Below, in pieces: positions 1 to 14,232 of a stretch of 64,000 nucleotides of DNA (position 1 is the stretch's first letter; the number at the start of each line of letters is the position of its first letter). The position numbers and the translations under genes were made by a program. The stretch is from assembly GCA_023269825.1 (NCBI GenBank), contig JAGDWI010000002.1, positions 1-64,000 of the forward strand, read 5' to 3'. Below the pieces are notes generated by a model. The model saw nothing but the letters and a program-made list of their open reading frames with translations. It did not search any database and had not been told where the DNA came from. The stretch is from Desulfurococcaceae archaeon (GTDB lineage Archaea > Thermoproteota > Thermoprotei_A > Sulfolobales > Desulfurococcaceae).

Positions 1-1011
1 AGAGAATACCCAGAGATTAGAAACGTTACTATCTGGCTAGACGACCATCTGTGGAAAACTAATAGCTTAACTTCTATCAGTATAGCTACCCACAAGGGCT
101 GGGTAGTAGTAAAGTTCGAGCCACACAAACAGTATTGGAAATACATCAGTAGGGAATGGAGGCTCGCTTCAGAAGCCAAGATAAAACTCGACAAGAGAAA
201 CAGGCAGTTAATAATATACCTCGTCTTCATGAAAGAGGTAGATGTGTATAAGCCCAGGGGCTATCTCCCAGTGGATGTTAATGAGAATAGTGTTGCATTA
301 CTAGTTGATGGTGTGGTTTATCTCTTCGAGACTGGTATGGAGAGGCTTGTATTGGGATATTACTACCGCAGGAAGAGTATTCAAGAAAAGTATGATAAGC
401 TCTACGGTGTTAATTCACGTGTTAGGAGGAAAACCATGAGGAAGCTCAAAGAGAGAAATAGGAAACAAGACATTAAATGGAAGCTGGCAAATATAATTGT
501 TAGAGTTGCATACGAGAAACAATATACTGTCGTACTCGAAAAACTTGGTAAAAACCCAGCTGGCAACATGATTAAAAGAATTAAGGATGAGCAATTGAGG
601 CACAGGATATACCAGGCATCATTCAAAGGAATTCAAAAGGCAATTGAGGAGAAAGCCAGGGAGCTAGGAGTTCCCGTGTTCTACGTAGACCCCAAGTATA
701 CCTCCAAGACATGTCCAATCCATAAATCACAGATAACCTATGATAACGGCTCCCGCATCGGCAAGTGCAGTATTGGCGGTGAGCTGTGGCATAGAGATGT
801 TGTTGCATGCTGGAACCTGTTTTTCAAAGCCCTAGGGGGTGATGGGAGCATTGCTCCAAGCCCCCGGGGGCTTTTACCCGTAGATGGGAGCCCCGTGCCG
901 TTGGGCTCGACAGCCACCCATGAACCCATAGAGATACAAAGGTCTCTATGGGCGAGGTGGAAGTCCCTAGATGCAATGAGAGACCATAAACCCATACAAA
1001 CGAGCATCTAG
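1..1011 (+). CDS. tnpB: TnpB RNA-guided nuclease, copy A (5' end outside window)
   Basis: The frame is open from base 1; by alignment with the complete copy at 6458 the visible part starts near residue 98 of that protein. The RuvC-like nuclease core is present: first Asp in PVDVNENS, Glu in VLEKLGKN, last Asp in LWHRDVVACWN. The usual four-Cys zinc finger is altered: CPIH, then one Cys (GKCS) and the His of LWHRD. TnpB proteins of IS200/IS605 and IS607 elements cut DNA guided by an RNA made from the 3' end of their own gene and the element's right end. The stop codon lies inside the right-end hairpin (963-974 with 1004-1015). No transposase partner is visible. Confidence 0.9.
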   Translation, partial: REYPEIRNVTIWLDDHLWKTNSLTSISIATHKGWVVVKFEPHKQYWKYISREWRLASEAKIKLDKRNRQLIIYLVFMKEVDVYKPRGYLPVDVNENSVALLVDGVVYLFETGMERLVLGYYYRRKSIQEKYDKLYGVNSRVRRKTMRKLKERNRKQDIKWKLANIIVRVAYEKQYTVVLEKLGKNPAGNMIKRIKDEQLRHRIYQASFKGIQKAIEEKARELGVPVFYVDPKYTSKTCPIHKSQITYDNGSRIGKCSIGGELWHRDVVACWNLFFKALGGDGSIAPSPRGLLPVDGSPVPLGSTATHEPIEIQRSLWARWKSLDAMRDHKPIQTSI

Positions 1012-1019
1012 GGACAAAC
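829..1019 (+). ncRNA. Predicted omega-RNA (reRNA) scaffold of TnpB copy A
   Basis: The 3' end of the gene folds into a string of hairpins: 845-857 (GGAGCATTGCTCC), 859-872 (AGCCCCCGGGGGCT), 925-934 with 943-952 (10 bp, perfect) and 963-974 with 1004-1015 (12 bp, perfect). Other copies of the family keep the pairing while changing the bases, so structure is selected rather than only protein. The sequence shared by all copies ends at GGGACAAAC (1019), after which they differ; by analogy with known TnpB systems the guide would begin about there (from 1020). Size and processing are inferred. Confidence 0.6.
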
Positions 1020-1058
1020 GGTTTAATGGGTTGCGGAGTCCCCACTTCTCGATCTACA

Positions 1059-5866: not shown

Positions 5867-5907
5867 CCTATTTTAAACCAGTTTCTTTTTTTAAATACCG
5901 TTTGTCC

Positions 5908-6147
5908 CTAGATGCTCGTTTGTATGGGTTTATGGTCTCTCATTGCATCTAGGGACTTTCTCCTCGCCCACTCTTTCACTGGTAGCACTGCTACCTCTAG
6001 AGTGGGTTCACTGGGCATTGGGGCCAACGGCATGGGCCCCTTGAGAGTTAAATACTTCTTTTCAATGTTTAGAACTGCGACTACGTCTCTACCAGACTCG
6101 AACCCGCAATTGGGGCATTTCAAATGCCTAGGGCTGTTTTGTTTTTG
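5908..6147 (-). pseudogene. TnpB 3' relic, copy B
   Basis: Only the last 80 or so codons survive: NSPRHLKCPNCGFESGRDVV, i.e. the second zinc knuckle and the last RuvC Asp of a TnpB that, unlike copies A and C, keeps the ordinary CPNCG knuckle. The segment after it differs from A and C, yet the terminal 12-bp hairpin (5904-5915 with 5945-5956) and its 29-nt loop are identical to copy A. A second stem (CCCACTCT with AGAGTGGG, enclosing GGTAGC with GCTACC) takes the place of the 10-bp stem of copy A. The shared right end finishes at 5900. This is a mosaic relic: diverged coding part, shared right end. Confidence 0.75.
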
Positions 6148-6249
6148 ATTTGTGTTTGTTAGATTTGTAAGTATTTATTTTGTTTATTATCATTGGTTGT
6201 GAAAGGTTTTTAAGGGGCTTTTGGGGTCATTTAATACCGGTTGGAACTG

Positions 6250-6456
6250 ATGTCGGAGTCTAAGGAGAGGTTGTTGAAGCCTAGGGAGTTTTGTGAGATT
6301 GTTGGTATTAGCTATAGGACTTTTAAGCGGTGGGTTTCTCGGGGTTTAATCAACGTTGTTAGAACACCCACGGGGCGGATTAGAATACCATACTCCGAAG
6401 TCGAACGCATCCTGAGAGGAGAATACAGCCACATACGTAAAAAGAAGGAAGAATGA
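6250..6456 (+). CDS. Stand-alone MerR/IS607-type DNA-binding protein
   Basis: 68 residues: an excisionase/MerR-like helix-turn-helix (LLKPREFCEIVGISYRTFKR) followed by the wing RTPTGRIRIPYSEVERIL. This is the N-terminal DNA-binding domain found in serine recombinases of IS607 elements (TnpA), but the frame stops at 6456, before any catalytic serine domain. TnpB follows after one base. Either the recombinase has been lost and only the DNA-binding part kept in frame, or this is a reduced HTH-TnpB pair. ATG 6250 is chosen; an in-frame TTG at 6241 is possible. Confidence 0.75.
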   Translation: MSESKERLLKPREFCEIVGISYRTFKRWVSRGLINVVRTPTGRIRIPYSEVERILRGEYSHIRKKKEE

Positions 6457-6457
6457 A

Positions 6458-7753
6458 ATGAATAGGGCAACGAGAACCGTTATTGTTAAAAGCACCAGGC
6501 TTCCTAGGAAAGTATTTAGTGTTTTCATTGAACTCGAGGGTATGTATCGCAATATGGTTGAACAACTAGCAATGTATGCTGTTTCTAGTGGAATAACGAG
6601 TTTCACCAGGCTCAAAGCATTAAAGTACCGTGAATTGAGAAAACAATATCCACATTTACCAAGCCACTACGCCTACACTGCCTGTCAGGACGCATCCACT
6701 AGAGCCAAGAGCTTTCTAAAGTTGAAGAAAAAGGGCTTGACGGATAGAGAATACCCAGAGATTAGAAACGTTACTATCTGGCTAGACGACCATCTGTGGA
6801 GAATTAATGGTTTAACCTCTATTAGTATAGCTACCCACAAGGGCTGGGTAGTAGTTGAGTTCGAGCCTCATAAACAGTATTGGAGGTATATCAATAGAGG
6901 CTGGAGGCTCGCTTCAGAAGCCAAGATAAAACTTGACAGGAAAGAAAAGCGATTGATAATCTACCTAGTCTTCAAGAAGGAGGTAGAGGAGTACAGTCCT
7001 AAGGGTTACCTACCCGTTGACATCAACGAGAACAGCGTTGCATTACTAGTTGATGGTGTAGCATACCTCTTTGAAACAGATGTGGAGAAGCTTGTGTTGG
7101 GATATTATTATCGTAGAAGGAGAATCCAGGAGAAGTATGATAAGCTCTACGGTGTTAAATCCAGAACCAAGAGGAAAGCACTTAGAAAACTCAAAGAGAG
7201 AAATAGGAAACTAGACATCAAGTGGAAACTGGCAAACATAGTCGTTAGAGCCGCCTACGAGAAACACTACACTATTGTCCTCGAGAAGCTCGGTAAAAAC
7301 CCACCTGGCAACATGATTAAGAAGTTTAAAGACAAACAGTTGAGGCACAGGATATACCAAGCATCATTTAAAGGAATTCAAAAGGCAATTGAGGAGAAAG
7401 CCAGGGAGCTAGGAGTTCCCGTGTTCTACGTAGACCCCAAGTATACTTCGAAGCTGTGTCCAACACACAACGCCGAAATAACCTACAATGGCTCTCGAAT
7501 CGGCAAATGTAGTAAAGGAAACGAACTATGGCATAGAGATGTTGTTGCATGTTGGAATCTGTTTTTCAAAGCCCTAGGGGGTGATGGGAGCATTGCTCCA
7601 AGCCCTCTAGGGCTTTTACCCGTAGATGGGAGCCCCATGCCGTTGGGCTCAACCGCCACCCATGACCCCACAGTGGTCAAAAAACCACTGTGGGCAAGGT
7701 GGAAGTCCCTAGATGCAACCAATAAAAATAAATCCATATCAACAAGCATCTAG
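6458..7753 (+). CDS. tnpB: TnpB RNA-guided nuclease, copy C (complete)
   Basis: 431 residues. RuvC-like catalytic residues: D188 (PVDINENS), E276 (VLEKLGKN) and D361 (WHRDVVAC). The zinc knuckle is unusual: C334-P-T-H337, then C351 and H359 where most TnpBs have CxxC...CxxC. Residues 10-180 form the N-terminal wedge/REC region. It starts one base after the HTH gene, so the two form an operon. No stop or frameshift interrupts it, so the protein is probably made. It is a close relative of copy A. The stop codon (7751-7753) lies in the 3' arm of the right-end hairpin. Confidence 0.93.
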   Translation: MNRATRTVIVKSTRLPRKVFSVFIELEGMYRNMVEQLAMYAVSSGITSFTRLKALKYRELRKQYPHLPSHYAYTACQDASTRAKSFLKLKKKGLTDREYPEIRNVTIWLDDHLWRINGLTSISIATHKGWVVVEFEPHKQYWRYINRGWRLASEAKIKLDRKEKRLIIYLVFKKEVEEYSPKGYLPVDINENSVALLVDGVAYLFETDVEKLVLGYYYRRRRIQEKYDKLYGVKSRTKRKALRKLKERNRKLDIKWKLANIVVRAAYEKHYTIVLEKLGKNPPGNMIKKFKDKQLRHRIYQASFKGIQKAIEEKARELGVPVFYVDPKYTSKLCPTHNAEITYNGSRIGKCSKGNELWHRDVVACWNLFFKALGGDGSIAPSPLGLLPVDGSPMPLGSTATHDPTVVKKPLWARWKSLDATNKNKSISTSI

Positions 7754-7761
7754 GGACAAAC
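7571..7761 (+). ncRNA. Predicted omega-RNA (reRNA) scaffold of TnpB copy C
   Basis: It has the same hairpin order as copy A but with altered bases: AGCCCTCTAGGGCT at 7601-7614, an 11-bp perfect stem 7667-7677 with 7684-7694 (CCCACAGTGGT with ACCACTGTGGG), and the 12-bp end hairpin 7705-7716 with 7746-7757. In copy A the middle stem reads CCCATAGAGA with TCTCTATGGG, so most of its pairs have changed on both sides. The conserved right end finishes at GGGACAAAC (7761); sequence after it would be the guide. Confidence 0.6.
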
Positions 7762-7810
7762 GGATCAACTCTCAGTTTTTTATAACACCTCCCTATTCCT
7801 CGATCCGCAG

Positions 7811-7847
7811 GTGTTAGGTAGTTGAGAGGGGTTTATCTACCTAACAC
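7811..7847. repeat. Dyad repeat GTGTTAGGTA-N17-TACCTAACAC, copy 3
   Basis: Arms 7811-7820 and 7838-7847, perfect, with the same 17-nt spacing as copies 1 and 2 but an unrelated spacer sequence. It sits 41 bp downstream of the small tyrosine recombinase gene and 50 bp past the TnpB right end. TTAAACCCC follows at 7879-7887. Confidence 0.75.
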
Positions 7848-13294: not shown

Positions 13295-13874
13295 GATGGA
13301 TCCCTCGATTGCTATTGGTGGCCTTATAAAGCAAGCGGTTTGCGATTCTAACAGCCTTCCTGAACAAGCCATCTGAGACAATGTCCTTGAACTCGCTGTA
13401 GCTAGGCGTTCTCCCAGCCCGTAGCTCCCGTAACACGTAGGCTATGAGTAGCTGTGCTCTCCTAGACCTGGTAAGCAAGTGCGGGGCTTCCCTGCCAATC
13501 TCTCCAATGATCTCCTCGAGTTCCGGCAGCAGCCCGAGCTCCTTGAAGAACTGCTCGAGCTTGATGCTAGAAGGTCTCTTCAAGCTCCACTTGAATCCAA
13601 CGCTGAATAACCTAGAGTAGTCGACGACGAAGCCCTTCCTCTCAAGCCTCCTAGCTTTAGAGTAAAGACTTCTGTTCCTATAGTACCTCCTCGACACTAC
13701 TTGAGCTCTACGTGGTGAACCACGCTTCCCCTCACACGACTCCGTGTCCCTGCTCGGCGGGGAGTAGTCATAGATCCTCTCCACTACTTCACCAGTCTCA
13801 GCGTCCACGACGTAGCCCTCACGGTAGTCGTATATGAGGACTCTATTCCTGCTTGACACGTTGATCCGCCCCAT
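13272..13874 (-). CDS. Basic protein of unknown function (faint TFB-like N-terminus)
   Basis: 200 residues, rich in Arg and Lys. The segment YVVDAETGEVVERIYDYSPP resembles the B-reader/linker region of transcription factor B, and the next 50 residues are very basic. The C-terminal half is helical (LEQFFKELGLLPELEEIIGE; LLIAYVLRELRAGRTPSYSE), which could be a helix-turn-helix or cyclin-like repeat. No zinc ribbon is present, so TFB is a weak analogy. It overlaps the 3' end of the disrupted gene upstream by 32 bp and the LSm-like gene downstream, forming one leftward operon. Confidence 0.5.
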   Translation of the reverse strand: MGRINVSSRNRVLIYDYREGYVVDAETGEVVERIYDYSPPSRDTESCEGKRGSPRRAQVVSRRYYRNRSLYSKARRLERKGFVVDYSRLFSVGFKWSLKRPSSIKLEQFFKELGLLPELEEIIGEIGREAPHLLTRSRRAQLLIAYVLRELRAGRTPSYSEFKDIVSDGLFRKAVRIANRLLYKATNSNRGIHLAEAGTG

Positions 13875-14232
13875 GGATCTCCTTCTTGGGCTTATATTCT
13901 AGGTACTCGACCCAGTACCGTGTTTGTCCCTGGATATTCATTCCAATCACTTCATATCCATTCATGGTCATATCCAGGGACTTCCACCTCGCCCATAGAG
14001 ACCTTTGTATCTCTATGGGTTCATGGGTGGCTGTCGAGCCCAACGGCACGGGGCTCCCATCTACGGGTAAAAGCCCCCGGGGGCTTGGAGCAATGCTCCC
14101 ATCACCCCCTAGGGCTTTGAAAAACAGGTTCCAGCATGCAACAACATCTCTATGCCACAGCTCCCCGACCTTCACCCGGCCGTGCTTCCTAACCTCCTCT
14201 GCAATCCAGTAGAGTAACCTGGCCGTGGACAT
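13843..14232 (-). pseudogene. Winged-helix-like gene split by a TnpB relic (copy D)
   Basis: The first 22 codons (LLYWIAEEVRKHGRVKV) look like the first helices of an archaeal winged-helix protein. At about 14163 the frame enters TnpB sequence nearly identical to copy A (ELWHRDVVACWNLFFKALGG and on), and after the right end it returns to element sequence (RYWVEYLEYKPKKE) up to 13843. The insertion keeps the frame open, so a 129-residue hybrid could still be made. I treat it as a disrupted gene because the wing helices are gone. Only the 3' part of TnpB is present, without its nuclease body. Confidence 0.65.
13922..14115 (-). ncRNA. Solo omega-RNA-like right end, copy D
   Basis: The middle stem (13992-14001 with 14010-14019) equals that of copy A, but the end hairpin has changed on both sides: GTCCCTGGATAT (13926-13937) pairs perfectly with ATATCCAGGGAC (13970-13981), where copies A, B and C have GTCCCTAGATGC with GCATCTAGGGAC. 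Three base pairs are compensated. With no nuclease gene attached, this unit could supply a guide RNA in trans to TnpB from copy A or C. Confidence 0.5.

Follow-up and report, generated by a model that had tools for sequence, protein, structure and literature searches.

A probable IS607-type TnpB guide RNA and its protein-less solo elements in Thermoproteota

The closest described relatives of the system discussed here are TnpB proteins with a guide RNA encoded at the end of the transposon. The IS607 element ISFba1 has a right-end element RNA (reRNA) derived from RAGATH-18, with a scaffold of about 187 nt after tnpB, three stem-loops and pseudoknots, one of which joins an apical loop to a distant scaffold stretch; its guide is the right flank, and 36% of RAGATH-18 RNAs are not located beside an IS607 tnpB (PMC11061315). 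ISXfa1, another IS607 element, has a GG crossover, includes the right-flanking G in its scaffold, and uses GGG as transposon-associated motif (TAM). For this element, mutation and rescue have proven a pseudoknot that pairs the final bases of the scaffold with a loop about 130 nt upstream (PMC10711439). In archaea, SisTnpB1 of Sulfolobus islandicus, whose gene carries the ωRNA at its 3' end, is active at 75 C (PMC10640517). Here we describe a stretch of 64,000 nt from a Desulfurococcaceae archaeon (contig JAGDWI010000002.1, positions 1 to 64,000), referred to below as the window. It contains four tnpB copies or relics, A to D, and the hairpins at their 3' ends are well supported as the ωRNA of TnpB.

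The RNA resembles that of ISFba1 and RAGATH-18 in the IS607 family, the position of the scaffold after tnpB, a predicted pseudoknot, and the predicted right-flank guide. The latter are found mostly in Firmicutes, however, their TAM is AGGAG compared to the putative GGGG here, and RAGATH-18 solo copies were not analyzed as elements. ISXfa1 differs in being bacterial, in its reRNA of about 150 nt with an unrelated sequence, and in that no solo elements have been described, while an RNA end at the right end of the element, next to variable flank, is common to the characterized IS607 TnpBs (PMC10711439). SisTnpB1 is likewise archaeal (Sulfolobales) with an ωRNA at the tnpB 3' end, but it is of the IS200/IS605 type with an AT-rich TAM (TTTAA) (PMC10640517). 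Searches of Rfam at gathering and permissive thresholds gave no relevant match, the RAGATH-18 model included; the RNA, for which Rfam has no model, represents a new family within a known kind. Solo guide RNAs occur in other systems. Standalone IscB ωRNAs and palindrome-associated transposable elements (PATE) are protein-less loci with a guide RNA used in trans, but these belong to IscB or IS200/IS605 systems and have no serine recombinase ends.

Judged from sequence, it is highly probable that the 3' end of tnpB encodes an IS607-type ωRNA and that protein-less solo elements encode only this guide RNA, likely using TnpA and TnpB in trans. An alignment of 92 relatives reveals a scaffold of 197 nt with six helices and a predicted pseudoknot, which overlaps the last ~60 codons of tnpB and stops at the GG end of the element. 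Compared to dinucleotide shuffles, the regions of copies A and C fold with z values of -6.6 and -9.0, and RGGGASAAACGG occurs three times in the window (0.01 expected). RNAalifold gave the same fold for 20 relatives aligned without structure, with double changes in 26 of 46 pairs. Pairing across the named helices plus the pseudoknot is 92.4%, with double changes in 29 of 59 pairs; none of 500 shuffles was as good. A tree-aware null was also used, in which the observed substitutions of 92 unique sequences in a structure-blind MAFFT alignment were re-placed on a FastTree tree. Twenty of the 56 pairs of the proposed structure were significant (P1, 6; P2, 4; P3, 4; P5, 6), while the same P was reached by 27 of the 18,665 pairs outside the structure. 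G-U cells exceed A-C cells in P1 (168 vs 39), P1b, P3, and P4, which for these helices points to the tnpB sense strand as the RNA. Chance palindromes were ruled out by shuffles, slides, and the tree null.

The original prediction was based on the window alone, and the stem arms it quoted are all present: the middle stem reads CCCATAGAGA/TCTCTATGGG in A and D, CCCACAGTGGT/ACCACTGTGGG in C, and CCCACTCT/AGAGTGGG in B, and the end stem reads GTCCCTAGATGC/GCATCTAGGGAC in A, B, and C and GTCCCTGGATAT/ATATCCAGGGAC in D. A third, inner stem (AGCCCC/GGGGCT) proved to be two adjacent halves of one palindrome that cannot form a hairpin alone, the true helix being P1, inside which the small hairpin P1b is located. 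The unit had also been placed with its end at GGGACAAAC, but it extends to position 1021 and terminates in CAAACGG. Covariation among the window copies is indeed present but thin, because A equals D for ~200 nt and A and B have an identical terminal hairpin and loop, so that relatives were needed to establish a conserved structure. In relatives from other genera and families covariation is strong, contrary to what would be seen if it were confined to these copies. The proposed role as TnpB ωRNA or guide scaffold is thus supported by covariation, by the TnpB transposon, and by a predicted RNA ending exactly at the right end of the element. The dominance of protein-less RNA elements in the family had not been seen.

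The intact TnpB of copy C matches PF07282 above the cut-off, and the RuvC triad D188/E276/D361 is invariant across 19 aligned TnpBs. With NF040570, copy C scores 86.7 bits, under the cut-off of 100, and the TnpB of locus L026 scores above it. A single-sequence phmmer search of TnpB against the PDB gave no match, and profile and fold searches were needed. The family profile matches TnpB and Cas12f chains, and an AlphaFold model of copy C TnpB (mean predicted local distance difference test score 83) matches Cas12f, ISFba1 TnpB, and ISDra2 TnpB, with Foldseek E values of 2e-15 to Cas12f and 2.5e-11 to ISFba1 TnpB. Residues 377-396 and 424-431, in the protein tail from the RNA region, are predicted at very low confidence, as would be expected if the DNA there is shaped by RNA.

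In relatives (L010, L011, L012, L014), TnpA is 212-222 aa long and combines a MerR-type helix-turn-helix (HTH) with a serine recombinase domain, which identifies the family as IS607. Insertion at GG without terminal inverted repeats, another IS607 feature, is seen in filled and empty sites of genomes G020 and G028. No Y1 transposase partner of the IS200/IS605 type was found in the relatives, the partner gene being the serine recombinase, and Y1-type hairpin ends were rejected. No full-length TnpA was found in the genome of the window, where HTH-only remnants precede A and C; the IS607 TnpA profile matches the copy C remnant at positions 2-51 only. Remnants of this kind, without the recombinase domain, occur repeatedly directly upstream of tnpB (Table 1); a possible reason for retaining the HTH is that it represses the left-end promoter.

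Genomes were searched with R1, a covariance model of the RNA. Of 61 genomes from relatives, 42 gave matches, and in several of these the RNA is far commoner than TnpB; across the phylum, 95 of 398 genomes gave matches. The named relatives with the RNA are Thermoproteota, largely Desulfurococcales and Acidilobaceae. Among the matches listed for eight Thermoproteota genomes (~84 bits or more), at least 85 copies have no upstream tnpB compared to 20 that are tnpB-linked. The solo counts are lower bounds, with up to 41 candidates scored per genome among the relatives and up to 6 in the scan of the phylum. No similarity to TnpB residues 1-350 was detected in 40 solo loci. A left end could be recognized, from its pattern and by visual inspection, in 36 of these, and the element is then 226-365 bp long and runs from a GG-GCAG/GCTG left end through the complete RNA to CAAACGG. 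The structure is conserved without a reading frame: the HRDVVA motif, located just upstream of the RNA in tnpB, is kept in none of the elements and a frame of any kind is open through the RNA in only 11, while the solo RNAs, in an alignment fitted to R1, have 92.8% of cells paired and double changes in 33 of 51 pairs. In 23 of 36 elements, a strict TATA match (TTTAWW) precedes the RNA by 24-52 nt (shuffles: mean 6.7, maximum 14). As read from these sequences, internal deletions fused the left end and a TATA-like box directly to the RNA and gave rise to protein-less elements, which most likely use TnpA and TnpB in trans.

Like miniature inverted-repeat transposable elements (MITEs), the solo elements have parental ends, no transposase gene, and several copies at different sites. 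The RNA is complete at 69 of 88 right-end motifs, and the remainder are largely chance matches in genes and decayed relics; degenerate relics include L192-L194, L198, and L199. The nearly complete genome G043 (G043:C1) contains five intact solo ωRNAs (L069-L073). Three of them are identical and located at three sites, and recent movement of solo units is therefore indicated.

A related repeat has been known since 2009. In the Staphylothermus marinus genome, 14 copies of a ~260-nt repeat were called MITEs and described as similar only to the sequence upstream of four IS607-type open reading frames (ORFs), without recognition of their RNA content (PMC2678158). We treat genome G028 as that of S. 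marinus; the TnpB genes in it agree with the 2009 description. The related genome G020 is presumably S. hellenicus. Seven repeats found with R1 in G028 are alike, and those compared in detail match the G028 TnpB elements at the left end and in the last ~150 nt, the tnpB 3' end. They thus consist of a left end and an ωRNA; a TTTATAAA box is present, and hairpins and pseudoknot are arranged in a similar way. This composition is shared with the present solo elements, and the host is of the same genus as G020 and G028, but the S. marinus repeats belong to a different TnpB subfamily with the right end GGGCAACCAC.

For all eight G020 solo insertions with homologous flanks, an uninterrupted site is present in the sister genome G028. 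The identity of filled and empty flanks is 86-92% over seven loci, and L079 aligned as one piece with a corrected left end. The predicted guide is immediately preceded by at least GGGG in every empty site and by AAACGG after insertion. The GGGG agrees with the GGG TAM of ISXfa1 (PMC10711439), and such a switch is what a nuclease would need to spare filled sites and cut empty ones.

In the proposed mechanism, solo elements would be moved through GG by TnpA in trans. The left-end promoter would transcribe the scaffold across the right end into the flank, so that the next ~16-20 nt of flanking DNA would serve as the guide. TnpB from another copy would then process and load the solo RNA, the complex would cleave the allele without the element, which reads GGGG and then the guide sequence, and homologous repair from the filled copy would restore the element. 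A homing role of TnpB has been proposed (PMC8612924), and we infer that it may extend to these solo elements.

Several points weigh against such a mechanism or the RNA behind it. A stricter all-pairs test shows modest covariation, with 8 pairs inside and 1 outside the structure. The pseudoknot CCGUU/AACGG is nearly invariant and so has no covariation of its own within the family, although a second family with GUGGU/ACCAC at this position and, by analogy, the equivalent pairing of ISXfa1 proven by mutation and rescue (PMC10711439) argue for it. The GGGG preference could come from TnpA, through G runs, rather than from TnpB. P5 shows the reverse bias (G-U 19 vs A-C 52; 963-974/1004-1015 and relatives), and part of the constraint on it may act at the DNA level or on the opposite strand. 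This helix and CAAACGG, both at the element end and nearly fixed on one strand (the nearly fixed right end coincides with the 3' strand of P5, AGGGACAAACGG), would suit hairpins that act as DNA-level end signals, such as palindromes bound by TnpA, or as transcription terminators, instead of guide RNA. However, covariation extends to five further structures as far as ~190 nt from the end, the enclosing helix P4 included, the G-U excess elsewhere points to sense-strand RNA, the transposase is a serine recombinase and not a hairpin-binding Y1 enzyme, and the layout is that of proven IS607 reRNAs (PMC10711439, PMC11061315). We consider DNA-level signals highly unlikely, and terminators were rejected as a reading of the hairpins.

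It is possible, though rather unlikely, that only the linked copies encode an ωRNA and that the solo elements are inert MITEs hitchhiking on TnpA, whose RNA structure looks conserved only through their youth. The movement of solo units in G043 and the degenerate relics are consistent with this, as is the finding, also unfavorable to a guide function, that the solo RNAs of G043 are accompanied neither by a TnpB above the Pfam cut-off nor by an IS607 TnpA match; the G043 orphans may be stranded or served by DNA outside the assembly. Yet the ends alone would suffice for a MITE, whereas most right-end motifs come with the complete RNA, the solo copies differ from each other by compensatory changes, and the TATA-like box of the fused left end is spaced appropriately for transcription of the RNA. 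That solo ωRNAs direct TnpB to other targets, for regulation or defense against mobile DNA, and not to their own empty sites seems extremely unlikely. Dispersed guides could form a repertoire, and TnpB-derived repressors exist, but all eight tested G020 guides are the flank of the insertion and match the empty site in the sister species, and the RuvC residues are intact. For guide A, no exact viral match was obtained, and 20 relatives showed no empty site for it. Two viral contigs (L210:4168-4185; L211:835-852) contain an exact match to the first 18 nt of guide C, which may be due to chance, as the sequence is AT-rich.

The features of the window are summarized in Table 1, in which the 20-nt guide length is assumed from characterized TnpBs. 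The 5' part of copy A, with left end, HTH-only ORF, and TnpB N-terminus, sits at the end of contig C3. The copies are patchworks at 825-1021 (A), 5898-6062 (B), and 13920-14119 (D). Copies A and B have the last 50-odd nt in common, though their TnpBs belong to different subfamilies, and copy D matches copy A exactly as far as GTCCCT, for ~200 nt, after which the terminal hairpin differs. This patchwork suggests gene conversion between dispersed RNA copies. Copy C is inserted at 6131 beside or into the B relic; its left flank runs into B coding sequence, and its right flank shows no continuation of B. Relic D lies in frame within a 129-aa ORF, with the left junction GGTCGGGG and a right end without GG (CAAACACGG), and a search of 40 relatives gave no homologue of the ORF flanking or hosting it. 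Several intergenic regions contain the inverted repeats GTGTTAGGTA...TACCTAACAC, which also occur beside TnpB copies.

Table 1. Coordinates of tnpB copies, RNA parts, and accompanying features (window positions unless a locus or genome is named)
Feature	Position	Strand	Basis or remark
Copy A tnpB, 3' part	1-1011	+	PF07282 match; window edge is a contig break
Copy A ωRNA scaffold	825-1021	+	covariation and folds
Copy A helix P1	826-840/860-874	+	covariation and folds
Copy A helix P1b	845-849/853-857	+	covariation and folds
Copy A helix P2	888-893/903-908	+	covariation and folds
Copy A helix P4	914-918/956-960	+	covariation and folds
Copy A helix P3	925-935/942-952	+	covariation and folds
Copy A helix P5	963-974/1004-1015	+	covariation and folds
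Copy A predicted pseudoknot	898-902/1017-1021	+	CCGUU loop with AACGG, final bases of element
Copy A predicted guide	1022-1041	+	flank past CAAACGG; family-wide element end, variable flank
Copy B relic	5898-6123	-	second TnpB subfamily with CxxC zinc finger; terminal hairpin same as in copy A
Copy C left end (GG-GCTGTTTTG...)	6131-6240	+	conserved upstream of tnpA in relatives
Copy C HTH-only tnpA remnant	6241-6456	+	no serine recombinase domain; matches HTH_17 and MerR only
Copy C tnpB, intact, IS607-type, 431 aa	6458-7753	+	PF07282; RuvC D188, E276, D361; TnpB/Cas12f fold
Copy C ωRNA scaffold	7567-7763	+	fold vs shuffles; R1 covariance model
Copy C predicted guide	7764-7783	+	flank past CAAACGG
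Copy D, 3' tnpB fragment and complete RNA	13920-14172	-	ωRNA 13920-14119; no left end
ORF with relic D	13843-14232	-	129 aa
Other HTH-only tnpA remnants	L009:265-498 (C3:423348-423488); G058:C3:85645-85794; G058:C2:251402-251548; G020:268891-269031		
Inverted repeats GTGTTAGGTA...TACCTAACAC	~1060-1097; 2400-2436; 7810-7846; L009:150-184		

The archaeal scale of solo guide RNAs, the left-end promoter fusion in IS607, and the re-reading of the 2009 MITEs are new to us; no description of these solo elements was found in the openly accessible literature, most subscription journals being outside that search. The repeat class of 2009 becomes a set of candidate guide-RNA genes. The family adds an archaeal, probably thermostable IS607 TnpB/ωRNA system, for which a covariance model and numerous natural guide/target pairs are available, and sister species with filled and empty sites represent a natural system for TnpB-guided homing that would maintain non-autonomous elements. 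There is about an even chance that Thermoproteota carry fleets of guide-RNA transposons, each with a left-end promoter and a complete ωRNA, for which a resident TnpB defends the insertion site in trans by cutting the empty allele, so that they would be parasites of an RNA-guided parasite. If true, one TnpB would serve ten or more dispersed guides, like a scattered array of clustered regularly interspaced short palindromic repeats (CRISPR).
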